The notes beneath the pieces are model-generated. The model was not told where the DNA came from and did not search any database. It worked only from the letters and a program-made list of their open reading frames with translations. From Polytrichum commune (taxonomy: Eukaryota; Streptophyta; Polytrichopsida; Polytrichales; Polytrichaceae): 64,000 bases of DNA. Below, piece after piece: positions 6,701 through 51,540 of the stretch. The DNA is taken from the NCBI GenBank assembly GCA_950295325.1, contig OX485804.1, forward strand, positions 45,002,429 through 45,066,428, in the 5' to 3' direction. Position 1 is the stretch's first letter, and each line of letters starts with the position of its first letter. The position numbers were made by a program, and so were the translations under genes.

Positions 6701-7531
6701 GAAGGCATTGCAATGAATTGTTAAATGAAAACTCTCAAAGTAATGTGATTGTGAACTTTGGTTGAGGATTTATAAATGAATGGAAGAATGTTGTTATTGA
6801 TTACAAAAAAACACTCTCTTCATTCGTAACACTTAACCTCGACATTAGGATTTCGGGGAACATAAGCTTGAAAGCTTAGACTACTTTCTCCTTAGAGATT
6901 TATCCAAGAGGAAACACCTTCAAAAGTTAATTTAGATAAGTGTAGTGTCCATGTAAACCGGTCAACAGCGGGTTACACCGTCTAAGTTGCTGAGGGTTTG
7001 AAGGTGACCTCGACACTACACTTGAGCTTAAACTTGAAGACATACAAGCTTAAGTGACGCCAACTTGATGGATCCCCCATGACCCCACGTGGAACGTCTA
7101 CAACCTCTTGGTAAGTTACAACCTAATGGAGGTCACTTGGGAATGTCAAGAATTTGAGTTTTTTTTGTTTTGTGGGCCCCAAGACTTTTTGACATATGTT
7201 ATGAATACTCCTTTATATATTATCATTGTTCCCTTCATATCTCACTTTGAGCATGGTCACTTTCCACTTGCTCAAATCTCAATAGTTTGATCCTTGAATA
7301 GAAGCTTGTCATATCCAAGTATCAATCTCATGAGAATTGCAAGTTTGAGCTCTCAACTTGGGCTTGAATGAGGAGGGGCTTCAACTCAGATACAACTAAA
7401 TTGGGGTGTGTGTGTATTGAGGGAGGGGGGGAATTTAAGTGCATTATGAAGCAATCAATGAAGAGTGTTATTGCAATTTATCCCACTACCCGAATCCCAA
7501 CATATCACTAGGGGAAGGTCCCGGATGTGGA
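6701..7531. other. Intergenic with a short inverted repeat
   Basis: AAGTGTAGTGTC near 6938 is inverted as GACACTACACTT near 7011, bracketing about 60 bp. No coding region is recognised in the rest of the stretch. Confidence 0.35.
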
Positions 7532-7890
7532 TAACATTACCCAACCCAAACGTCTTAACTCCGGCGCGGAGTTCGATGCGGCTCCGATGCGGCTCCGGGG
7601 AGGTTCGGATGCCAGCTCCGGTGGGTTCGGGTGGGTTGGGGCAAAAATTGCCCCCTATTTTTTTGATTGGGTGGGGCCTTACTTGATCTCATAAGGGGCC
7701 TCCTAGAGTAATTTGGGGCCGTAGAACCCAAATTTAGCAAAAAAAAACCAAAAAGAGTCATCAAGGGGCCATAACAGGGAGGGCCAGAAAAATGGACCCA
7801 CCGGAGTTGGCATCCGAACCTCCCCGGAGCCGCATCGGAGCCGCATCGAACTCCACGCCAGAGTTAAGACGTTTGGGTTGGGTAATGTTA
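7532..7890. mobile_element. Foldback / MITE-like element with ~95-bp inverted repeats
   Basis: The left arm (7532 to about 7628) and right arm (about 7795-7890) are close inverted copies over roughly 95 bp. The shared end reads TAACATTACCCAACCCAAAC and the arms are GC-rich inside (GATGCGGCTCCGATGCGGC). About 165 bp lie between them. The arms differ by a few substitutions, so the element is not brand new. A TA dinucleotide sits at both tips; no longer target duplication is clear, so the superfamily is undecided. The open frames across it are by-products of the GC-rich arms. Confidence 0.75.
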
Positions 7891-8961
7891 GGGCCCGGAT
7901 GTTAGATAAGAATAGCATCATCTATTAACAACCATTTGGCATAATCTAAGCTAATAAGAAAAACATAAAAGTACATGATAATATCCAAGACATGACTTTA
8001 CTTAGTCCCCACTAAATGTTCACAACCTAACTATAGTTGCATACTAATAGTTTATTGTTCACAAGCAAATATTCACAGTATCAGTCATTGCTATCGGGCA
8101 TGTGCAATGCTAGGATTTTTCTTTACAGTAAACACATGCCCTCCTCATGTTTGAATAACATGAGTTTACTAAGGATACTCCCCCCCCCCAATTTGCAGCC
8201 TTTCTAAAGGGGGAGGGGTAGGCAGTAGGCTCAAATTAGGGGCCTTTATTCTAGGCTATGTTCCTTGCTCACAACTTATACTGTACATCTACAGGTGGCA
8301 ACGACACGTGCAAATGGCTGGAAGACACACATGGAGTCCAGGTTGACACCTAAACGGCATCGTGGTTTAAAAACTCATACTCTATGAATTAAATACCGCA
8401 AGTGACGAGCCGAATTGCCAATTCCCTCTTGTAAAATAAACAGTAATTAGATTAGGTAATGTTTATTTTACAAGGATGGCCTACCACAATAAGGATTACT
8501 CTTCCAAAATTCTTGACATTAGGGGTGCAACACCCTAGTGTTGAATAACATTACGAAGTCAAGGCTTCATTCAATATTCATACACTTGATACAAAGCATA
8601 GGAGGAGCTAGGTGCTAACCCTACCCATACCGCCACTTGAAGAATGCCATGGAGAGTTGATGGTTTTAGGGTTTTGATTATTTTTGTTTTTTTAAAATAA
8701 ATTTTATGTGGAATTTCTATAGGAGGGGAGCCGGGACTGGCACAAAGGGCCACCTTAAGGTATAGTAAGCTTATTCACTTTTTAGCCGACTGCGGCGAGG
8801 GAGCGACGTTGGCTCAAAAGGAGAATGGACCCATAAACTTCCTTTGATTTTTTTATATGAGAAAAGGCAGGCCCATAAGCTTGGAATATGCTCCCACAAC
8901 TTTGGCAGCTGAACAGCATGAGATGGGAATCGTGAACAGGAAGGAATTTGGCCACTAATAA
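7891..8961. other. Intergenic, no gene seen
   Basis: AT-rich spacer with a run of C near 8171 and no recognisable coding frame or transposon ends. Confidence 0.4.
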
Positions 8962-34800: not shown

Positions 34801-35446
34801 TTCCACTGAAATCTCCAACCAAACCAACATACCTAACCCTCAATAGAATCAGTCGATTTTCGGTAAACTGCAGAATCAAACCACAGAACCCTAAACTGCA
34901 GATTCAGCATAGCTACTTCTTAACACCCGATTCTTTCAACATTTGTTTGCAATACATGTGCATTTATAATGAGCAGAATTTTTGTGTTTCTTCCTCAACA
35001 CCTTTGTAGTAAATTGACAATCCCAAGTACACCCTGCCTTCGCCTTCTGGAAACTCCGGTCCAATTGTGGGTAACTTCGGACCCTCTTCAGGGGCTACTA
35101 CAGGGGACTTTGAATCTTTTCTTTCACCTCGAGGAGACTTCGCAGATCCTTTCCTTTCAACCTCGGGAGCCTTTCCAGATCCTTTTCTTTCAACTTCGAG
35201 ATTAGCTGACTCCAGCAACGGTTCCAATTTTTGTGCTGCCCTGAAGGACCGCCATTGCCAAGCTGCAATGGTGGTGGCCGACACAGGCTGGTTTTTGTGC
35301 AACCCATAGATATGGAGAAACTCATTCAGGTTGGCATGTTTCCGGAAGCTTGCGTATGTGAGGCGCTCGTCGCCTGGCAGAAGGGCTTCTTCCTCCACAT
35401 CCACATCCACATCAACATCAACGTTGGTACTTGTGTGGCAGTCCAT
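28831..35446 (-). CDS. Radial spoke head 10 homolog B-like MORN protein, 14 exons
   Basis: Exons read on the minus strand: 35446-~35023, 33873-33725, 33519-33421, 33093-32834, 32214-32079, 31524-31390, 31261-31149, 30972-30579, 30460-30368, 30015-29967, 29868-29783, 29716-29513, 29317-29138, 28998-28831. This gives about 829 residues, close to vertebrate RSPH10B. The N-terminus has an Asp/Val run (from a CATCCA repeat) and a Lys/Ser-rich segment. It is followed by several MORN repeats, for example GGFRKGFLHGKGTLTW, YEGRWAAGLRHGQG and YVGGFETGMRSGKGIFYF. The C-terminal helical part keeps RSPH10B landmarks such as INSFWRLCHNFH, QIDAIL and LFSMS. The tail is acidic. Radial spoke heads form part of the axoneme of motile cilia, so the likely role is in sperm flagella. 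Two junctions are uncertain. The exon 1/2 border lacks a GT donor at the position similarity favours. Exon 10 may instead end at 29923, but that breaks the frame. All other introns are GT-AG. Confidence 0.85.
32519..32668. repeat. ~150-bp foldback element in intron 4
   Basis: GGAGGTAGTGT at 32519 is inverted as ACACTACCTCC ending at 32668. An inner pair, GTCAAACTCATTTTGGCA and its inverted variant, lies around a short loop near 32597. The two arms together form a long imperfect hairpin in the intron between exons 4 and 5 of the RSPH10B-like gene. This is probably a small MITE. Confidence 0.7.
34040..34990. repeat. Five-copy ~205-231-bp minisatellite in intron 1
   Basis: Units contain ATGTGCATGTGTAATGAG, TTTTGTCTCAACACCTGT, TCTCCAACTACACCAA, ACATACCTAACCCTCAAT and CAGTAAACTGCAGAA. 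The landmarks recur at about 34071, 34276, 34496, 34730 and 34950. The array fills most of the first intron of the RSPH10B-like gene and reaches to within about 30 bp of exon 1. Small open frames in it are artefacts. Confidence 0.9.
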
Positions 35447-35819: not shown

Positions 35820-35828
35820 CTCGTAGTG
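35820..35828. repeat. 9-bp target site duplication, left
   Basis: CTCGTAGTG directly precedes the left end of the Mutator-like element. The identical 9 bases follow the right end at 41400-41408. Confidence 0.93.
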
Positions 35829-36149
35829 GCCCAGGGCTAGATCACATCTGCCCAGGCCCCCCGCCCCGCCCCGGGCAGATGTGCTTCCCTGCCCTCATTC
35901 ACTGCCCGCAAATTTCCGTGCTCATGGGAACGAGAGCCCGTTGGGAACGAGAGCCAATACCCGGGCCGTCATGCCCGGCCAGGCCCCGCATGCAAGCTCC
36001 CCATCCCAAGCAGCTTGGCTACACACGCCCCGACGCCGAAGCTCCCCACCTCAAGAAGCTTGTGAGTTTGTCTTCGCACTAAGATTGTCGCTCCTGTTTG
36101 CATTTGTTGTGATTTGTGGGACAGTGACCCATGCGGAGAGCCAGGAGTA
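35829..36149 (+). repeat. Left terminal inverted repeat of the Pack-MULE
   Basis: 321 bp, GC-rich, nearly identical in inverted orientation to 41096-41399. The left copy is 17 bp longer because GGGAACGAGAGCC is locally duplicated at about 35927-35956. A 110-codon frame starts inside and runs into the GMP synthetase fragment; it is open by chance or is a chimeric transcript frame. Confidence 0.93.
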
Positions 36150-37117
36150 TGGGCGCATGGAAATCACCGCCGTGAAGGGGAGCAGGCTCTATGGTGATGC
36201 GGATAGTTTCTAACTAGACTGTGTGGATGAGCCATGGTGACGAAGCTGTTAAGTTGCCCCCGGGATTCTCAGTTGTGGCTACAAGTTTGCAGGGGAACAT
36301 TGCTGCCATCGACAATGCTGAGGCTAACATCTATGCTCTCCAGTACCATCCTGAGGTAACATTCGTCTGTAAACCCTCGTTGGCTATGTGCATAATCGTG
36401 GTTGAATTCGTAAGGGTTTAAGGTTGCAAGGGTTTAAGTTGATGCTCCAATTTGTGAGGGTCTGGAGGTTCGAATCTTGCTTTCTGGGGGGGGTTCCTTA
36501 ACCTCTTGTGTGTGGTTGCTATGTCTGCTCACGAGGAGATGGTATCATCGTGGCATGCATTTCGTAGAGAGGATTGCAAATTTTAATTTAAAGAATGTAA
36601 AGAGGCATGATTTCCAATTTGTTAGGGTTTAAATACACTACTCAATCACACCAAAAGTCAGATGTTTTGGAATAGTCAATGTCTCAATAACTTGGATTCA
36701 GTGTCCAGGGGAGATTTTTGAGCACAATTGGTCGATATCCTAGTGTTTCCAAGTCCAACCAGTTACATGTTGACATATTTCAGTTTCTCTTTATTAAATT
36801 TGGGTATATTCTCTAAAGACCTCTGAGATGATTGGTAATTTTTCTGAATTCTTTGAAATTTAACCGAGTATTTCTCAAACTCAACTGGTTCATCTGTAAC
36901 TAGCAGCCAGTTTCTCCCCGTTCATAACTATGTTGCTTCTTTCATGCTTATTTGCTCCCGAAATGCAAGCATCAGGTGAATTGATAATTTATGTTGCATT
37001 CGGCAGGTCACTCATGTTGAGAAGGGAATGGAGACTCTGAGGCATTTTCTGTTGGATGTGGGTGGTATCTCGGCCGACTGGAAATTGCAGGATGTTTTGA
37101 TAGAACAGATAGATAGG
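36141..37117 (+). pseudogene. Captured GMP synthetase fragment (glutamine amidotransferase part)
   Basis: GMP synthetase turns XMP into GMP using glutamine. From about 36141 the peptide QEYGRMEITAVKGSRLYGD fits the amidotransferase domain. After a frame break at 36210-36224 (stop codon and two bases too few), [17 protein letters not shown] and ALQYHPE follow, including the His and Glu of the Cys-His-Glu triad. A GT-AG intron (36356-37006) is retained, so the capture was of genomic DNA and not cDNA. The next exon, 37007-37117, reads VTHVEKGMETLRHFLLDVG and ends in the domain linker before the ATP-pyrophosphatase. The nucleophile Cys region and the whole synthetase half are missing. It cannot make an active enzyme; a functional copy must lie elsewhere. 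Confidence 0.88.
36700..36930 (+). repeat. Family C copy inside the captured GMP synthetase intron
   Basis: Shares GTCCAGGGGAGATTTTTG, CCAGTTACATGTTG, TTTATTAAATTTGGGTA and CTCAAACTCAACTGGTTCAT with copies near 13317, 19486 and 28300. It lies within the retained intron of the GMP synthetase fragment. It either came along with the captured gene or inserted later. Confidence 0.75.
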
Positions 37118-39661
37118 GTAGGACCCATTGTTTGTGGGTAAACCCCTTCTGTGGGTCTTGCCATAGGCCACTCCACCAATGGTATTTGTGTGTAAGGGTG
37201 TTGATGTCAGCGCCCAAAGACAATTTTAGGTACTTGTATTTGGGGAGTGGAGATCAAAAGGGTGCCCTCAGTACTTGCAGCCCCTTGATTTTTTGCCTCA
37301 GCCTCAAAAGGATGGGAAATCCACTTCGGCCCATTGAGCCCAGTGCTATCAAAACTGAGATTCCTCATACTAAGCAGACATGTGCAAAGGCTCTCCCCCT
37401 CCTTGCCTCTTATTCTATTTTGATGTACCTTGGAACTACTGTTTGGTTGATACATTGTCCAAGCACAGTGTTTTAGTGTACTTTGGTATTGCTACATTTT
37501 AATGCTGAGTCAATTTCACTCTAAAATTATTATTACAGTCTATCTGCAAACAAATTCAGGTCAAAGTGCACTCTTAGTCAATTATGGTGGTTGTGACGGT
37601 GAGAGGACACAGTCCTCACAATGAAAGGCTGCGGGGCCTTAAGTTTAGGTGTCTTGCGAGTGCTCTCGCAACATCTCTTTATTCTCATGTTCTTGCATAA
37701 TATGTTCTCATTGAGCAGATAATGTTATGACCACATTAAGGTTATGATATTTAGTTTGAGTAGACTGATTCAGAAAGAATGCACAAAGCCATTGCACATA
37801 GCATCCATTACACGAAGCGATGAGCAATCACATTCTGAACATTTTGATAAATCCTTAGCGTCTCTGCTCACTTGACACTACAGTTGGAGTTTTTAGGTTA
37901 TCTCTAGCTAAGATTTAGTTGGCTTTTCCACCAGCGCTGCTAAGTAGTGCTAAGCCTACCTGGAAGCTTAACTGACACCTTGTAAAACCCATTCTTATTC
38001 AAAAGTAACATCAATGATACAGCTGTGAGAGATACAACATCATACTTAGTTAATGTAGGAGTTGCAGGTCCATTAGATAACATTGACATGATAACGCTCC
38101 ATGTAGCTTGTGGAAAATGTTATTGTTGCCTACCCATTTCTTTACTTATGCAAGTTTTTAAGTACAGAGGACTTCCTGCTTGATTGTGGTAAAAAATATC
38201 TGTCAATGAGGTTACATTTCTGAAATAATATTATCAATGGAAAGCAGTAAACCTTATCTTCATACTCCAATTATTGCGTTGATGTATTGCACATAAGTAC
38301 AAAAGCTCATACTGTGTCCGAATCTATACATTAATGTGTAAGAGGACTTGGGATTTTGAATTGTCCGTCAAACTTTGAAATGATCTCTCACCAGTTTGTC
38401 TCTCTTGATTTTTGGCCCGTCGACTGCTTTATGTCATTTTCATGTTCTGCAACCTGGATGATGTATTGGATAGAAATACTTGACAGGTCATTTTGTGAAA
38501 CCTGAAGGATGCTACCACTTCCTTTGGACAATAAATCTCTGCAATTCACAGGTTTTTGGTCCACCTTGTAGAGAAACACCCAACCCTCAGTACACATGGC
38601 AGTTTATAACCACCTCTCCAAATGGCATCACTCAACCACATGACAGTTGGTGTACTGAGAGATTAAGCGCCACGAGTATTCACGATTTATATCCAATCAA
38701 ATGGAAAATGTAATGTACAATTAGATTTATGGTAGAATATAGCTTCAAAATTCTTCCATATCCAAACAGCTAACTCACCTGAAATCGCCAGCGGCTACGC
38801 TGGATTTCGAGATGTCCTCGAAGAGCAATCCAAAGAACCATCACATCTAGTTAATTTTGCTATTGAATGGTATTGTTAAGACCTGTCTTCAACTGGTTCA
38901 CCCAAAACTGAACAATAGGAGATAACTTGTGAAACAGGACTGTAACTCTGAGACGACTTATGCACTGACAGAAGAATGGGAGATGCGGGATTGTTAGCAA
39001 AAGAGGTAAAGAAGAGCATTCACAGGTTTTCAATTGGAAGAAAATTGGTCAACTTTCTATGAACCAAAGCAATCTCCAGCTACCATCCACAATCGATCAC
39101 ATTTGAAGAATTTGACAACCAAAATCTATTGGAACACATCCCTAACTCTTGCCCTTCTGCAATACACCGCCGAAGGACATCCTGACCTCATTTTGAACGC
39201 AATCACCTGAGGACCTTACGTAACGCCAAATCTCAGCTCATGACCAATGCAATTGTCAATTTGAAGAACCATGTTACGGAGACATCGTCATATCATCAGG
39301 CCTCCTACTATACTTTCAAAACACGACGGCAACTGCAAAACCGCATGAATCAGGTGCTTATTCAGTGACACGAGACTGAGGTGAGGGAGAGACGAGCAAG
39401 AATACATTGAGGTAAAAATGACAAATTTGGGTTTTCTTGTCAAAAGAAGAAATACTTCATTTCATATCCAAGTACGTCGCCCGGCCATCAGAGGCATCCC
39501 TCTGTGGCCCAGCACAAATTAAGTTGGCTGCTTGAGTGGAGAGAGAGTCAGAGTACCGAAGGCAAAAAACTACAACCAAGCCGGCCAAATCCAAAACTGA
39601 ACTCATCAATCCAAGGACATGATGCTTCTGTGGAGTGCTCGCTTACTAACTAATCCTCATT
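37118..39661. other. Pack-MULE interior, unassigned
   Basis: No long open frame or transposase motif. The sequence right after 37117 begins GTAGG, the natural donor of the captured exon, so part of the following DNA is probably GMP synthetase intron. The source of the rest is unknown. Confidence 0.5.
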
Positions 39662-39961
39662 TCAGCACAGATAGGAGCGGCGGTCATTTTGAGTAATGAG
39701 ATTCTCCAGAGACCTGTTGCCTCCATCATTGAGCCAGTTCCTGAACTCCTGCTATTGTGCCTTTGCAATTTCTCGCTTATTAGACCTTATCGCCGCATTC
39801 AGCAGCCTCCAGACCTCTGCTCTGCCAAAATTGTGACCCGGTACGGACGCGTACTGCTGTACATCGTCTCCGAAACTTGCCCCTTTCTGCAGCTGCACTG
39901 GCGAATGAGGAAATCCATGTCCTCGATGTCCACAGGCTCGTTCATTGACCAAACCTAGCAT
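39662..39961 (-). pseudogene. Degraded coding fragment of unknown origin in the Pack-MULE
   Basis: On the minus strand one frame runs from about 39961 to a stop at 39662, interrupted only by a TAG near 39750. It has coding-like composition: FGDDVQQYASVPGHNF, AEVWRLLNAAIRSNKREIAK, then QEFRNWLNDGGNRSLENL. Upstream, a different frame begins MNEPVDIEDMDFLIRQC, suggesting a frame shift between the two parts. I do not recognise the family. It is probably a second captured gene piece, opposite in orientation to the GMP synthetase fragment. Confidence 0.5.
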
Positions 39962-41095
39962 CAGAGAACTTCACAAATGCATCGCTCTGCCCTTCGAGTT
40001 GCTGACAATAGAAGTTGGCGCTCAAACAGGGGACGCATCCAATCACCACCCAGCGCCATTCAATGACAATCCCTACTTGAACTTGGCAGTACCCTGAACC
40101 CAAAACCCTAAACCCTTTTAATTCGTGTTGATAACAACTACGTTTCTTAGCAGTGTTGCCGGTGAACAGCTATGTAATTTGGATTTATCACCATGATCAA
40201 CCCCAACATGTCTTTGGTAATCTTTGAAATTATGGGGCCTCTGTGACTTGCTTTCTACACCACTTTCCACGCACATTGGGTTGATATTTCTCATTCACTT
40301 CATTACAGGAAGATACTCAATGGTTTGAAAACAACATGAATAAATCAACAAAACTAGGGCATCTTCAACTCAGGTGGCAATACAATCACATTGCAATATA
40401 AAAGTATCAAGGATTGGAGTTAAGGGAAGTGCGGCCTCACCACCTGCGTGACAGTGGTGAACACTGCCTCCTGGAGCAACAATGCGAGCTGGGGAGGTGC
40501 AGTTTGATGAAGTATTTTGCTCATTAATTCAATGTTCGGCGAATTGGATGCCCGACACTCGGTAATTTGAGCTAAGCAGGTAGACGGAGGGGCAATCTTA
40601 CTTGCATGGCTGTCAATCGGCCACTTCGTATGCAATAGTCGGTGTCATCCGTAAAAGATGAAGTCCTCCAGAATGAAATATGACAAGATTTGAAAGCACA
40701 CGACATTTCTGCAAGCAAGAGTTACCAACAAATTCCAAGAACCCTCAGCACTTGTAGAACTCCACTTCCACGAAAAGCAAACGATTTACTCAATCAGCAT
40801 AAGCTCAAAACCAATCTATTACATTCTCTTGAGACTATTTACAAGGACGGTGAGCAAAAATCTGAAAGTCTTCTTCCGTTTCCATAGAGAATACGTACCA
40901 AGAAGGCAGGGGCAATTGGCTCGTGAAGCCCATGTGGCCCAAATTCAGACCCTGTGGCCCAAATTCAGATTCCGCCACGAATTCCCGCGACTTAAGCATC
41001 GATCACACCACTGATGAACTGCAGATTCGTGACTTAAGCCTCGATCACATCACTGATGAACTGCATATTATCCAAGCTTGGGGGGCCCTACAAAG
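39962..41095. other. Pack-MULE interior, right part
   Basis: Short frames only. A small direct duplication lies near 40935-40970 (GTGGCCCAAATTCAGA twice), and another near 41000-41060 (CGATCACA.CACTGATGAACTGCA twice). Confidence 0.5.
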
Positions 41096-41399
41096 TACTC
41101 CTGGCTCTCCGCATGGGTCACTGTCCCACAAATCACAACAAATGCAAACAGGAGCGACAATCTTAGTGCGAAGACAAACTCACAAGCTTCTTGAGGTGGG
41201 GAGCTTCGGCGTCGGGGCGTGTGTAGCCAAGCTGCTTGGGATGGGGAGCTTGCATGCGGGGCCTGGCCGGGCATGACGGCCCGGGTATCGGCTCTCGTTC
41301 CCATGAGCACGGAAATTTGCGGGCAGTGAATGAGGGCAGGGAAGCACATCTGCCCGGGGCGAGGCGGGGGGCCTGGGCAGATGTGATCTAGCCCTGGGC
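41096..41399 (-). repeat. Right terminal inverted repeat of the Pack-MULE
   Basis: 304 bp, the inverted partner of 35829-36149. It lacks the 17-bp internal duplication seen on the left. Confidence 0.93.
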
Positions 41400-41408
41400 C
41401 TCGTAGTG
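41400..41408. repeat. 9-bp target site duplication, right
   Basis: CTCGTAGTG, identical to 35820-35828. Confidence 0.93.
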
Positions 41409-44460: not shown

Positions 44461-46329
44461 CTGTGCTGAGTTCCATAAATAGCTAAGTCTACCTTAACCT
44501 GAGAAGAGCTTCTTTTGACTTTTTGAAAACCTGTTACATCAAAGTCCAAAATAGTAATCAACTCAAAAGAACTTTAGAATGCTTGACCTATTGGACTGTT
44601 CAATCATTCAATGTTACAAAACTGTAGAAATCGTTTTCTGACCTTTCACGAGCACAATTTGAGGAGCTTTAATCAGGATACGAATAAAGTTTGCAGGATG
44701 GGTTTCTTTGACTTTTCTATCAGAACAAACCACTGTTTAATCCATGGACTGCTAGGTACCTGTTACCAAGTTTATCTCTACCTCCAAAAACCCACATTAT
44801 CAGCCACTTTGCAGATCACCTGGAATCTTTGCAGGAAGAATGTGACGGCCATGAGTTGCACTTGTCATGGAGTTTACAAGTTACTGTGGGAGTGAAAGCT
44901 CAACATCATGAAAACCTCATAAGTATATATATACCAGTACTATACAAATAGGGTAATTGATGCTGGTTATTTGAAGTCCTAAATATTTTATTGAGTTCTT
45001 GTAATCTTTCTGATGAGACCCACTGATTAGAAGTTGGTAACCACATTCCACACTTTTTTAAAATTTTGTTACCACAGTAACAAAATATATGGGTAAAGAG
45101 GCAACCTATTCACAAAGGCAACCTTATTGCACATATAAGTGCAGTCATTGCTACAAGCAATTGCTGAAAGTCTAAATTGACCATTCCAAGTCCAGGCACT
45201 TCATCCAAAAATGTGTCTCCGTGGCTTGGGAAAAGAGAAACTATACTATACAGTGCCAATGCAGATCTTGGATCGAAACAAATGTCACGATGTCAGAACT
45301 TCCTGAAAATGAGAAATCTCTTAGTAGAAAACTGCTGTGATATAACTTGACATGTACACATGTAATCTGCCAGATATGAAACATACATGTCCATGCTCAT
45401 GAATCCCTGTATTTTTTTCAACAAATGAGAGCATGGTAAATCATGATTGTGATATTAAATATGACACCAATGACACACAAACTCTCCTCTTAAGAGGTAG
45501 ACTAAAAAGCACATCAACAGAGTAGCACTTTAGAAATGATATGGGCTAATTAAAAAATTGCCATTCTCTTGAGGAAATAGCAGAATTTCATTGACCAAGT
45601 AACATATTTCAGAAATGTCACCGAAAGGCATAACAAATGTATGTACAAGGTTCAGCTCACAAGGTTCTTGTACCTGGTGAGCCAATGCAAATCATGACAA
45701 AAGTTGGGGCAAGCAAGACAGTAAGCTCGACTACGCAGTAGTGTAACCTACAGGATATTCTACACCATGAACTAGTGGAGTGTACTCTATCTCTGTAAAT
45801 GTGACACACAATGTAGGTTCCCAGTGTTACAAACCGGGTGATGGTTCTAAAAGGCTAAAGGCTTGATTGATGATGGTTGACGTTCATTAAGCCTAGCTCC
45901 AGAACAAAAGCTGTGAGACACCCTCAATACTCACATTTGCGATGACTAATCATTTCACTTTCTCATCATTTCAAATTCCTGAACCACCACCTCTCCCTCC
46001 CTTAAGTCGGTGCCAGAAACAAAAACAAAGTACAAGAGCCTGCTCTGTACAGAAGTGTACCTATACAGTTGGAAAAGGCTGTACTGAGGAGGAAATGTCA
46101 AATTCCATCAAGGGTGCCAAATCTTCTCATCCGAGAGGCGCTTTGTTGACTTCATAAGAACAGCCTTGGGTCGTAAATTGTTAGGAAGAGAAGCTCTTCC
46201 ACTTATATCCTGGCAAACCCGATTTTAGGAGGTACACAGGGCAATGAAGCTGTTGTCTTATCACATACAAAGCCTTTCGACATGTGCCGATAAAGGAAGA
46301 ATGGTAGTGACCTCTTGCAATGGATGTTG
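44461..46329. other. Spacer downstream of the receptor kinase gene
   Basis: No gene, RNA or clear transposon recognised. AT-rich with short frames only. Confidence 0.4.
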
Positions 46330-46369
46330 TTTCTCTACACCAAGATGGCCAAGGAAAAAAGAGAATCCA

Positions 46370-47060
46370 ATGTGTCCTTGATGAAGTCTGCATGATTCTC
46401 TCCCCATGAATCCACCGCCATAGACTTGCATCTTGTGGGGTTCTTACAAAACTGGTGCAAGAAAACATTGAAACAGCAAACTCACAGATCCAGGAGACCT
46501 GCAGTCGCATACTTGTAATGCCCTCAAACACGCAAGGCCTTTGCAACAACAGCAGGCTCCAAGCTCCTTCGGAATACAAATGGGTTGAAGGTGTCCAAAT
46601 TTCTCGTGTGATTCTAATATCCTGAAATCTCATAAAATTCAACCCTGATCTTGACGAGGCTCTGCAAATTGGAGTAGTTCCGTGGTCTAGTAGAAACCCA
46701 GAGTTTTCATGAGTATCTTAACCAAAGTCAGAACATGTCAGAATCAAGTGTCTCCTTCTTGAAGTCTGGATGACTCCCCTTGTACATTTTCCATTGACTT
46801 GCAACTCATGGGAATCTCACAAAACTGATGGCAAGAAAAAAAATCTCAAGCAGCAACTCCCAGAAGCACAAGACCTGCTGTCAGATGCCCGACGCCCTTG
46901 AACACGAGGCCATTGCAACAGTCTCAGTTGTGAATCGAATCGGTTGAATGTGTGCAAATTTCTTGTGTGATTCTTATATCCTGAAATTTCGTGAAATTCA
47001 ACCCTGATCTTGAGGAGGCTCTGCATTTGGAGTACATTCGTCATCTGGTGGAAACCCTGA
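46370..47060. repeat. Tandem duplication of the receptor-kinase 3' end
   Basis: About 46375-46690 and 46750-47060 are diverged direct copies with a 359-bp offset; for example AACCCTGATCTTGA.GAGGCTC lies at 46641 and 47000. The inner copy includes the last codons and stop of the receptor kinase. The outer copy is a decayed relic in what should be 3' UTR or downstream sequence. Confidence 0.85.
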
Positions 47061-50000
47061 GTTTTCGCGAGCTTCTTGATCCACATCAGACCCTGTGTTC
47101 TCCGAGGCTTCTTGATCTGGGAATGGACCTGAACAGTCATACGCTTCCTGGACAGGTGAAGGCTCTGCATCCTCTAAAATTTCTACATCTGGGAGAGACC
47201 CAGAACTTTCACAAGCTTCCTGATCTGGAGGGGTACCTGAATTTTCAAAAGCTTGCGGAACAGTGGCAGACTCAGTCTTTTCGCCAGCTTCTTCCTGAGC
47301 TCGGGGAGGCCCTGGCATTTCATCAGTAGCTTGCTGATGATTTTCACTCTTTTCACAAGTTTCCTGACTTTTGTGGAGCCCCAATTCTGTAATCTCAGAA
47401 CTATCCTCAATGACTGGCAAGTCTTTTGAGTCACTGGATTTTCGTGTACAAGCCTCGGTAAGCATCCTCACAACCTCCCTCATTGTCGGCCTTTCGGACG
47501 GTAAACTACTCGTACAAAAGACAGCAACTCGTAGGACCAGAAGCATCTCTTCAACAATAGTCTCGTCCATCAAATCCAACCTGCTGTCAAATACAGAACT
47601 TATCGCAGCCCTTTTCTGCATCGTCTCTTTTACCCATGTCACTAAATCTCCCCCTTCTTCAATAGGTTGAATCGGACACCTTCCCGTGAGCAACTCCAGT
47701 AGAACCACACCAAAACTGTAAATATCACACTTCTCGGTTACCTTCATTGTATATGCATACTCTGCATGTACAAGGGAACAGAAATCTTCAAGTTAGTGTA
47801 AGTGAGTAATTTATAAATCTCAATGCCAACCATAAATTGCAATGTGAGCACTGTACACCCAGCAAGCTGAAACATTTCACCTGAACGCAGACACACTAAG
47901 CAAGTACAAACAAGTAATGGTAGGGAAATGCTTCAAATAAATTCCTAAGGAGAACAGTCAGGGAACAAGAACATGCTATCAACTTCACTCTGACTTGTAA
48001 CCCTTCAACACGCTCTCGAAAGGGAGTAGACGAAACACACATATGGAAGTCCACAAAAGATACGCAAAAGAAAAATGAAGTAGTAATCGATGCACTAACT
48101 GCAACAAAATATCAGAGGACATAAACCCATCACTTGCTAAATTTCTCAAAGCCAATGTTCAAGTTCGAATCCAATATTACATTGATGTCTGTGCTAATTA
48201 GAAAGAGTAGCAAAATCTTCTGTGCAAACACCCAGAGTCAACCTCCAGAGGAGCCTGATAAGTAACTTTGTGCATATTCTCTAAGTCAGGAAAGTAAAAC
48301 AACACAGTCAGCAGACACACATCACAAGATTGCAAGCACATGTTGGACAGCACATTGTTGGAGAAACCATAGTGTGACAGAAACATGTAAAGATTGACAA
48401 CACCTAGATATTCCAATCACAATATTCAATGTGTAGTATTGTCTGTACCAGGTGCAATGTAGCCATACGAACCAGCAACAGCCGACATCGATTTCGAGTC
48501 TGGGAACTCCATGAGCTTTGCCAACCCAAAGTCTCCAACATGTGCCTCGTAGTGGTTATCCAGGAGGATGTTGTTAGACTTGATGTCACGATGGATAATG
48601 AGTGGCTTGCAATCGTGGTGTAGATATGCTAAGCCTGCCGCAGCACCCAATGCGATCTTATACCGCAGGTCCCAGTCAAGTTCACAATTTTCGGCCACCA
48701 ACAGCTCACCCAAGCTTCCCTTGGGCATGTATTCGTACAAGAGAAGGTTGAAACCTTGGTAAGAGCAAAACCCTAAGAGCTTAACAATGTTACAATGCCG
48801 AATCTTACCCAACGTCATAATCTCTGCAGTGAAGCTATCATACTGTGTCATGCTGTCTTTCTGAGTTGACAGTTTCTTGACTGCGATGATTTTCCCAGAT
48901 GGCATGACTGCCTTGTACACTTTCCCACATGCACCTCTTCCTATTTCAGTCGCATCGCTGAAATTCTCTGTTGCACTCAACACATCAGTTATGGTGATTC
49001 CTGTCCTTGGAAGAAATATAGTGTCCACCGTCTCTTTCTCAGGTAAAGGTACAAGAGCAGTGGGACGCCGACAGAACCAGCATGCCCCAATAAATATGAT
49101 GAGCACCGCCCCACCAATCACAGCTGCAATTACACCAACAACAGCACCAGTTGACACATTTGAGTCCTGCCAAGTGGGAGCTGGTGGCGAGGGAAGAGTT
49201 TCCACAAAAGGGCACGCACTCAATACCGGACCTCCACATAACCCTGTGTTTCCCATCAAACTGCTCATATTCAGCTTCGAGAAGAACGAGCCACTGGGCA
49301 GTGGCCCCGACAACTGGTTGTAAGATACATTGAAGATGATGATACTGGTAAGGTCTGATAGGGCAGCTGGTATCTGCCCTGTGAGGTTATTGAATGATAA
49401 GTCCAACATTTCAAGCATAATCAGGTTACCAAGTTGCTCTGGGATCCTCCCAATCAGAGAATTGTGGCTGAGGTTAAGCCCATACTGTAAAGTGGTTATC
49501 TGGCCTAACGACACAGGAAGAAATCCTGAGAAATTGTTTCCTCCCAGATGCAAATAGGACAAGCGAGAGCATAAATGCAAAGCATCTGGAATGGAGCCTT
49601 CCAGTTGGTTATTTGCAACCAAAATGCCCTCGGCAAATGTCAGGTTGCCAAGCTCTGAGGGAAGCTCCCCACTTAAGAGATTGTCACTGAGGTCCAGTCG
49701 TTGGAGCTGTGTGCAGTTGCCAATCTCGGAGGCAATGGTTCCAGTGAAGGCATTTCCAGAAACATTCAAATACACCAAATTCGACAGCTGACCTAACGTG
49801 CCAGGAAGCGTGCCGTTGAAGTTGTTGTCTGCAATCGAGAACACTTGCAGCGCCGTCAAGTCGCCAATGGTTGCAGGGATTTCACCACTGAAACTGTTTC
49901 CTCGCAGGTCAAGCTGTTGAAGGGATGTAAGGTTGACTACATGTGGCAAAATGTCACCAGTCAAGAAGTTCGCATCTAGGCCAAGCTGTTGTAGGGACTT

Positions 50001-51383
50001 GCATGTGAAGACATCCTGTGGGACAGTGCCGGTCAGGAGATTGTTCCCAAGGTGCAGGAGATAGAGGGCACCCTGGGCACAAAGCAGAGGAGGGATGGTC
50101 CCGGTGAACATATTTGAGGAGAGCTCAAGAATGTAGAGACTGCTCACACTCCCCAGCAGAGGAGGGATGTCACCAGTCAAATTGTTGCTGAACAACTGAA
50201 TCTTCTTGATGGATGTTGAATTTTGAAGGCTTGTTGGGAGGGTTCCTGACAGCTGGTTCAAGGAAAGATCCAAATCAGAAAGTGCAGGAGCTAACCCAGC
50301 AATCCAAGGTATAGTACCAGAGAGGCTATTCTCGAAGAGATGCAAGAGCCTCAAACTTTGTAGCCGGAAAATCCCATCAGGGATGATCCCAGTCAAGTTG
50401 TTCTCCGAAAGATCAATTTCCAAAGCAGAGGTTAAGTTGCCAAGGCTGGCAGGGATGGAACCATTCAATTGGTTGGAGTATAAGTACAAATTCTGAAGCT
50501 CCTGCAGCTTCCCTAGCTCCGGTGGCACTGGCCCACTGAAATCGTTCCTGTAAAGAGCTAACATATGCAGATGGGTTAGGTTGCCAAGCTCCGCAGGAAT
50601 GTCCCCCTCCAGCTGATTCCCCCATACAATAATGGAAGTCAAATTCCTCAGAAGCCCAAGCTCCTTAGGCAAATGACCCGTCAAAACGTTCTGTGCAAAC
50701 CCAAAAAGCTCCAAATTCACACATCCTGCAATCTCCGGGGGAATAGGACCACTGAACGCATTCTCCCCTCCACGAAGCACCCTCAAAGCCCCCAACTTGC
50801 CCAGCGAAGAAGGCAAACCGCCACTCAGGTTATTGGTGTAGAACAAAAACTCCACCAAGTTCGTCAGGTTGCCAACCTCGGGTGGCAGAGGGCCTCCCAG
50901 CCCATTAGTCATCAAGTGGAGTGTCTGGAGAGCTTGCAACTTGCCAATCTCCGGGGGAATGATCCCCGTGAGGTTATTGTTCGCCAAATCCAAGAATACC
51001 AAGCGAGAAAGGTTCCCAATTTCGGGGGGGATTGCACCGGTGAGTGCGTTGAAAGAGATGTTGAGGTACCTAAGTGCGGCTAAGTTGCCAATGCTCGGAG
51101 ACAAAGTCCCAGAGAGGTTCTTCGCAGAGAGGTCGACGTCCCATACCCTCGGCCTGCTTGAGTTCATGCAGTACACCCCTTCCCATTGACAAGGATACCG
51201 ATCGGATGGGTTCCAGCTGCTCAAATGGCCATGAGGATCAATCAAGGTGCTCTTCACATCCAAGAGTGCCCTGCCATCCCATGACAGCCCGTGACACCCG
51301 TGCCCCACAAGAAGCACCACCATGCTCCACATCAACATCCTCAACATCATCATCATCCTTCTAGAGTAATGCGCGATTGCCAT
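46998..51383 (-). CDS. LRR receptor-like kinase (subfamily XI type), two exons
   Basis: Exon 1 is 51383-48449 and exon 2 47761-46998, with a 687-bp GT-AG intron inside the codon for the Glu of GYIAPE; the product has 1232 residues. It has a signal peptide (about 1-33), a cap with CQWEGVYC, and some 25 leucine-rich repeats of the form LTGxIPPEIGxLxxL to about residue 690. One membrane helix follows (about 746-770). The kinase domain has GRGACGKV at 815-822, Lys 836, Glu 854, HRD 931-933, DFG 951-953 and GSYGYIAPE, all intact, so it should be an active RD kinase. It would perceive an extracellular ligand, probably a peptide, at the plasma membrane; the ligand is unknown. Residues 1141-1232 form an acidic tail of about eight 12-residue repeats, absent from typical relatives. 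The start Met begins the signal peptide, and look-alike ATGs lie upstream. Confidence 0.95.
47001..47276 (-). repeat. 36-bp coding repeats in the receptor-kinase tail
   Basis: Successive 12-residue units such as SGTPPDQEACES, SGSLPDVEILED, AEPSPVQEAYDC, SGPFPDQEASEN, TGSDVDQEAREN and SGFPPDDECTPN, with a partial last unit AEPPQDQG. The core is PxQEAxE. The units sit after the kinase domain and run to the stop codon. Confidence 0.9.
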
Positions 51384-51540
51384 GGTTTTGCCAACAAAAC
51401 TTGATGAAGCCTACAGCCAGCCCCAGCTAAATGCTTCCCACCGTGCTCCACATCATCATCCTAGGGTAATGCGAGATTGCCATGGTTTTGCCAACAAAAT
51501 TTGATGCCGCCAGCCAGCCAGCCCCAGCGAAGTGCTTCCC
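51366..51540. repeat. Duplicated start region of the receptor kinase
   Basis: The segment around the true start (GCGATTGCCATGGTTTTGCC, 51373-51392) is repeated about 100 bp upstream of the gene (GAGATTGCCATGGTTTTGCC, 51473-51492), with flanking matches (CAGCCCCAGC, TGCTTCCCACC, GCTCCACATCATCATC). A third, weaker copy is near 52060-52090. Confidence 0.85.
51427..51483 (-). other. Upstream ORF mimicking the kinase N-terminus
   Basis: An 18-codon frame (MAISHYPRMMMWSTVGSI, then stop) in the presumed 5' leader, 44 bp upstream of the main ATG. It arises from the duplicated start region and resembles the real N-terminus (MAIAHYSRRMMMM). If transcribed it could reduce or tune translation of the kinase. 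Transcription start is not known from sequence. Confidence 0.6.

Follow-up and report, generated by a model that had tools for sequence, protein, structure and literature searches.

The window analysed here, a stretch of 64,000 nt from the moss Polytrichum commune, contains a segment with inverted ends that an earlier note, written from the letters alone, took for a complete Pack-MULE carrying a fragment of a GMP synthetase gene. Pack-MULEs are reportedly the subject of a 2004 paper by Jiang et al. The locus thus raises the question whether the segment is such an element and how host DNA came to lie in it. In the following the element of the window is called E1, and E2 to E9 are relatives fetched from the same genome. 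E1 is very probably a non-autonomous Mutator-like element (Pack-MULE), into which the cargo was copied stepwise and in which one end was then copied onto the other.

The genome assembly comprises 407.8 Mb in 64 contigs, seven of which are chromosome-sized (C1-C7). C1 to C6 measure 77.9, 70.3, 59.2, 59.1, 52.9, and 44.7 Mb, and on C7 a profile search with PF10551 gave matches past 41.5 Mb. psaA and psaB are located on C8, and a tandem array of LHCII genes (14 chlorophyll a/b-binding matches with equal scores over about 95 kb) was seen at C5:1.75-1.85 Mb. The earlier note supposed that the host plant has motile sperm; since a gene of the PACRG (flagellar) family was found in the genome, the moss most likely has swimming sperm. 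Among solved structures, PsaA scored best with 8htu (1724 bits), ahead of the sequence common to 6l35, 7ksq, 7kux, and 7xqp (1704) and of 9lut (1698). For LHCII the two-domain chain 9vfj ranked first, followed by 8htu and 7xqp, 30 bits above the next entry. 8htu, 6l35, 7ksq, 7kux, and 7xqp are structures from Physcomitrium patens, and the scores point to a moss as host.

Results

Ends and Insertion Site of E1

E1 is of the Mutator type, 5.6 kb long and spans positions 35829-41399 (Table 1). Its left end reads GCCCAGGGCTAG... from 35829, and the reverse complement of GCCCAGGGCTAG ends at 41399. The inverted arms comprise 208 nt (100% identity) and 111 nt (99%). The terminal inverted repeats (TIRs) have the lengths that had been proposed, 321 and 304 nt, and differ by one indel of 17 nt and, over the 304 letters that align, by two mismatches. 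Filler-like repeats lie at 40930-41069.

As claimed before, the element is flanked on both sides by the same 9 bp, ctcgtagtg. Both flanks of E1 were joined through a single copy of this 9-mer and used as query in a search of the whole genome; the scoring covered 40 of 2,208 first-look candidates. Besides the two matches of the window itself, 39 others were listed with 68-80% identity. These 39 are paralogues of the target repeat; 37 of them match across the entire 9-mer and the join, and in the other two the match starts inside the 9-mer. All eight empty sites fetched from the 39 listed showed no gap at the join and a single target sequence. The target of E1 was therefore a single copy of a dispersed repeat, and the empty sites agree with the duplication.

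Table 1. Features of E1 (window positions) and locations of its relatives.
Feature	Position	Strand	Evidence or remark
Left target-site duplication, 9 bp, ctcgtagtg	35820-35828	.	sequence; empty sites
Left TIR, 321 nt	35829-36149	+	ancestral TIR until ~36117, GMP synthetase exon beyond
Captured GMP synthetase exon a (part)	36116-36355	+	frame broken by 2-bp deletion in E1; parent L001
Retained GMP synthetase intron	36356-37006	+	5' part 240/260 and 3' part 78/81 identical to parent, middle unalignable
Dispersed repeat within retained intron	36692-36925	.	absent from parental intron
Captured GMP synthetase exon b (part)	37007-37112	+	101/106 identical to parent
Segment matching C1:13.428 Mb	37112-38171	+	downstream of mitochondrial-carrier ORF
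Segment matching C1:48.579 Mb	38234-38476	-	90%
Segment matching duplicated locus C6:14.16 Mb	38511-40042	+	1,532 nt, 33 substitutions, gap-free
Family interior	40050-40627	+	common to E4 (97.8%) and, over 40052-40607, to E6 and E7 (96.8%)
Segment matching C5:3.443 Mb	40620-40935	+	91%; also in E5
42-bp tandem duplication close to right end	40986-41069	+	short filler-like repeat immediately before
34 nt of GMP synthetase exon within right TIR	41096-41129	-	probably copied from left end
Right TIR, 304 nt	41096-41399	-	without 17 nt of left TIR
Right target-site duplication, 9 bp, ctcgtagtg	41400-41408	.	sequence; empty sites
E2	C3:24.08 Mb
E3	C6:43.31 Mb
E4	C3:2.29 Mb
E5	C4:20.77 Mb
E6	C4:52.34 Mb
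E7	C1:49.18 Mb
E8	C3:30.63 Mb
E9	C6:16.15 Mb

Relatives, Transposase and Class of the Element

A genome-wide search with the TIR gave 21 matches, two of which are E1 itself. Fifteen of the 21 fall in the nine elements E1-E9, one is the parental GMP synthetase gene on C5, and one is a short match on C5 (L039); the four matches at C3:9.02, C6:22.70, C3:11.43, and C2:21.64 Mb were left out of the fetched set. Perfect 9-bp duplications were found for E6 (atttgagtg), E7 (cagattcaa), and E8 (GTGGTAAAG), so that the duplication could be read in four of the nine elements, E1 included, and empty sites are at hand for E1 and E6. Other copies with these ends and duplications, whose absence would have spoken against the earlier reading, are thus present.

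E2 on C3 is a second copy with the entire cargo. Its alignment with E1 comprises 5,346 letters, with 74 substitutions among them, as well as 47 gap columns; the left end of E2 lacks the outer 199 nt. As E2 carries the same cargo, the element moved after the capture. E3, E4, and E5 each show one recognisable end in the fetched stretches. E6 and E7 are 10.2-kb elements, each with its own duplication. They resemble E1 in 556 nt of the interior (40052-40607) and in about 295 nt (36574-36867, 96.3%) that consist of GMP synthetase intron and the inserted repeat. 58 nt of this intron relic match the parental gene directly (89.7%, E=6e-18). The outer TIRs of E6/E7 and E1 are 80-82% identical over about 150 nt.

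Two side observations concern these relatives. Three loci of another repeat family (L034, L035, and L036 at C4:24.32, C2:62.99, and C6:31.53 Mb), with about 98% identity to each other over 3.9 kb or more, contain a 1.6-kb stretch with 99.6-99.8% identity to E6 7081-8681, which argues for a recent uptake of a piece of the MULE family by another repeat, or the reverse. In E8 an ORF of 631 aa without Pfam match (L015 4715-6607) lies between two stretches matching the transposase region of E6 and is possibly a nested element.

When the exons of E7 were joined across the predicted introns, the translation matched the MULE transposase domain PF10551 above the cut-off (E=6.7e-12). Single exons reached only E=0.009, and a SWIM match (0.02) stayed below the cut-off. 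The PF10551 domain of E6 and E7 is split by predicted introns; in both elements the frame is apparently broken, and E7 has in addition a stop near the start of the last predicted exon. The genome-wide profile search with PF10551, in which 150 of 271 candidates were scored, gave at least 142 matches, and none of those listed falls within the E6-E9 intervals. A PDB search with the transposase piece gave 0 matches. E1 itself showed no match to the transposase region of E6 (blastn) or to the E7 transposase piece (tblastn), and a Pfam scan of 11 of its 30 listed ORFs left ten without match and identified one as GATase.

MULEs make target-site duplications of 8-9 bp, while CACTA elements have CACTA ends and duplications of 2-3 bp. 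E1 combines a 9-bp duplication and long TIRs (321/304 nt) with a MULE transposase in a relative with related ends, and it lacks a transposase of its own, carries DNA of a host gene whose parent lies elsewhere and has a cargo-bearing second copy in E2. A Pack-CACTA does not fit the 9-bp duplication and the ends GCCCAGGGC. The assignment as a complete Pack-MULE is therefore upheld by the TIRs, the duplication with its empty sites, the related MULE transposase, the unlinked parent, the retained intron and the second copy.

The GMP Synthetase Piece and Its Parent

ORF 36218-36421 matches the GATase family PF00117 (E=8e-10), and the intron 36356-37006 has GT/AG borders and aligns with an intron of the parent. 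A piece of the amidotransferase domain with its intron in place is thus present as described. The parent, which according to the earlier note should exist elsewhere with higher identity, is a multi-exon gene on C5 (L001, C5:12,860,500-12,870,400). Its first exon matches PF00117 with E=2e-32, the later exons are open and were recognised as GMP synthetase by eye, so that the gene is apparently intact. Exon a of E1 is identical to the parent in 235/239 letters, with a 2-bp deletion besides, and exon b in 101/106. In the middle the introns differ, with a dispersed repeat in E1 versus an internal duplication in the parent. Three exon differences from the parent are common to E1-E4, which points to a single capture of their GMP synthetase DNA. 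Since the intron is retained and matches that of the C5 gene, the claim of a capture from genomic DNA is borne out.

That the fragment arose by retroposition or ordinary segmental duplication, with incidental TIRs, is exceedingly improbable. A GMP synthetase-like sequence without introns does exist on C1 (L002, C1:76,643,500-76,650,500; ORFs of 297 and 178 aa with a stop between them) and is a probable old retrocopy. However, it shows only about 65% protein identity and has no intron at the place where E1 keeps one, and it was rejected as source. In addition, the empty sites put the ends of the insertion at the TIRs. A 311-bp piece at C3:22.24 Mb (L011 3732-4042) was also rejected; it contains the junction between GMP synthetase and the C1 match and is 99% identical to E3, and therefore derives from the element. 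None of the TIR matches listed falls there. At a distance of about 0.7 kb from the piece an ORF has DnaJ and RRM matches below the cut-off.

The captured exon could also have been retained in a chimeric protein starting in the TIR, since the TIR has no stop in the frame of GMP synthetase. In E1-E4 this frame continues from the TIR into the exon, an in-frame ATG is present in the TIR of E1 and E4, and in E4 the frame stays open for 198 aa. However, in E1 the frame is stopped by the 2-bp deletion, which is private to this element, and E2 and E3 have no in-frame ATG upstream, so that such a protein is very unlikely. The captured piece of GMP synthetase is probably carried along without a function.

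A Mosaic Interior

The interior had been taken for one GMP synthetase fragment. The piece is there, but the interior as a whole is a mosaic of DNA common to relatives and of matches to four other places in the genome (Table 1). The match to C1:13.43 Mb consists of the aligned parts 37112-37871 and 37998-38171 with about 11% substitutions. This locus and C5:3.44 Mb were considered as direct donors, but both are too diverged and are kept as matching loci only.

The segments are distributed unevenly among the relatives. GMP synthetase DNA is present in E1-E4 and as relic in E6/E7, and no match to it was found in E8. The C1:13.43 Mb match occurs in E1-E3 and the C1:48.58 Mb match in E1 and E3, where E2 aligns to E1. 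Of the nine elements, E1 and E2 alone have the C6:14.16 Mb segment. This distribution indicates that the GMP synthetase piece was taken up early and the 1.5-kb C6 piece late, and the low divergence of the latter (33/1,532) fits a late capture. However, the C1:13.43 Mb match (75/702) is more diverged than its place in this order predicts. The locus may not be the direct donor, the donor being lost or the transfer indirect.

Probable Copying Between the Ends

Because the GMP synthetase exon starts at 36116, 34 nt of it fall within both TIRs of E1 (36116-36149 and 41096-41129). The same 34 nt are carried by the right ends of E2 and E5. Both ends of E8 cease to match E1 where the exon begins. A run-on into the rest of the exon is seen only at the left end of E1 and E2, which argues that the left end was copied to the right. 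In the lineage of E1 the left end was thus probably copied onto the right one, lengthening the TIRs by 34 nt of GMP synthetase exon.

In E6 and E7 the TIRs are 668 nt long (4 and 2 mismatches) and consist of TIR sequence (about 224 nt) and of a part that matches C4:31.89 Mb (about 444 nt, ~90%). The right arm continues for about 320 nt further into this match, whereas in the left arm a repeated 11-mer, CTCCTTGAGTG, precedes the change to the intron relic of GMP synthetase. Both elements lack 195 nt from the middle of the C4 locus. Judged from the arrangement of the arms, copying seems to have run in the reverse direction, from the right end onto the left, and with other captured DNA. The C4 locus represents the 5' part of a gene resembling those of fructosamine kinases, with four successive PF03881 pieces on one strand at C4:31,887,852-31,889,355, two of them weak alone. 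The stretch matching the TIRs lies upstream of these pieces. Its sole coding-like piece is weak (E=0.086) and mostly missing from E6/E7, so that mainly non-coding DNA was copied there.

The 34 nt of GMP synthetase exon would also be present at both termini if aberrant excision had fused two neighbouring elements and enclosed the cargo between them, the right end being the truncated left end of the second copy. Such a fusion is the model proposed for Pack-CACTA (PMC13317346, section 7). For E1 it is unlikely, but it weighs more than the other alternatives. No TIR of either type was found by blastn in stretches of 2.8-10 kb at the six matching loci (L001, L012, L013, L014, L038, and L053), a weak test as past flanking copies could be lost. 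Furthermore, the matching loci are spread over C1, C4, C5, and C6, and the repeated 11-mer at the left junction of E6/E7 is typical of slipped copying. Repair synthesis with template switching is favoured by the unlinked sources, the slipped 11-mer, the filler-like repeats, and overlaps of 1-2 nt at three readable junctions; overlaps of this length do not discriminate between template switching and end joining.

Genes Beside E1

The start of another gene had been placed 383 bp from E1. This could not be maintained: the minus-strand ORF in question has its only ATG at 35446, which leaves 373 bp to the duplication. The ORF has no Pfam match, so that a gene at this side is unproven. To the right of E1 a receptor-kinase-like gene is located on the minus strand at 46181-51410, with a 994-aa ORF and LRR matches in its first 198 aa; its kinase part was read by eye.

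Discussion

Stepwise copying into E1 can be put into the following order. The TIRs of E1 would be recognised by a MULE transposase from another element, as its relatives suggest, which moves the element, and its insertion made the 9-bp duplication seen at the site. Host DNA would have been copied into the element in steps, the GMP synthetase piece early and the 1.5-kb C6 piece late according to the relatives. Gap repair combined with template switching is the most likely mode of copying, and events of the same kind probably then copied a terminus together with the attached gene DNA onto the opposite end, an outcome seen in two lineages. More tentatively, and with somewhat more doubt than confidence, the ends in this moss MULE lineage may be units that are rewritten by repair synthesis: host gene DNA would be copied in next to one TIR and this end, with its cargo, then onto the opposite one, with TIRs repeatedly renewed from host gene DNA. 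Gene capture by MULEs would then be as old as land plants. If true, one repair-based mechanism of MULE gene capture would be readable from the E1-E9 family.

How MULEs acquire genes is called unresolved in the available parts of PMC3310237, PMC8277862, and PMC13317346, the last of which reviews capture. For animal Pack-TIRs, models of gap-filling and FoSTeST are given in PMC8277862. The E1 family provides more evidence on the course of capture than a single element usually does. It offers a relative without GMP synthetase DNA, transposase-bearing kin, successive captures, donors, and two copyings of ends, and this combination in one chromosome-scale genome makes the gap-filling model testable.

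In open-access literature with few subscription journals, no Pack-MULE from a moss was found among the papers listed, and priority is not established. The available parts of PMC3903597, PMC10741241, PMC3276141, PMC4054914, and PMC5941492 contain none; those of PMC8903248 do not mention mosses, bryophytes, Physcomitrium, Marchantia or Selaginella, and those of PMC6446971 do not mention mosses, bryophytes, Physcomitrium or Selaginella. PMC4663468, as far as its available text goes, counted genes expanded by transposons of several types, one of them Pack-MULEs; its 15 species include Selaginella, which is called a moss there.

Compared with Pack-CACTA (available text of PMC13317346, section 7), E1 is likewise non-autonomous and carries host DNA. 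However, it belongs to another superfamily, and a fusion of neighbouring elements is unsupported at its matching loci. With animal Pack-TIRs, as presented in the accessible part of PMC8277862, it has in common the template switching into other DNA and the short microhomology (median 2 bp there), and differs in belonging to a MULE family of a moss that shows captures in succession and the copying of one end onto the other. That acquired sequences can join extended TIRs is already known from section 4.2 of PMC3310237, which in the text available cites Hanada 2009 and Lisch 2002, and the captured host DNA in both TIRs of E1 is of this kind. Beside that statement stand here two cases with a matching host locus and a direction of copying, one of them with a relative lacking the captured DNA.

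Like the Pack-MULEs of rice, maize, and tomato in the available parts of PMC3310237, PMC8903248, and PMC3276141, E1 has long TIRs, a target-site duplication and no transposase, and it likewise carries several fragments of host genes from unlinked loci. In difference to the Pack-MULEs covered there, its host is a moss, and the order of capture, the donor gene and transposase-bearing kin with a remnant of the cargo are found in one genome. E1 thus extends Pack-MULEs, which are best documented in flowering plants, to a moss.
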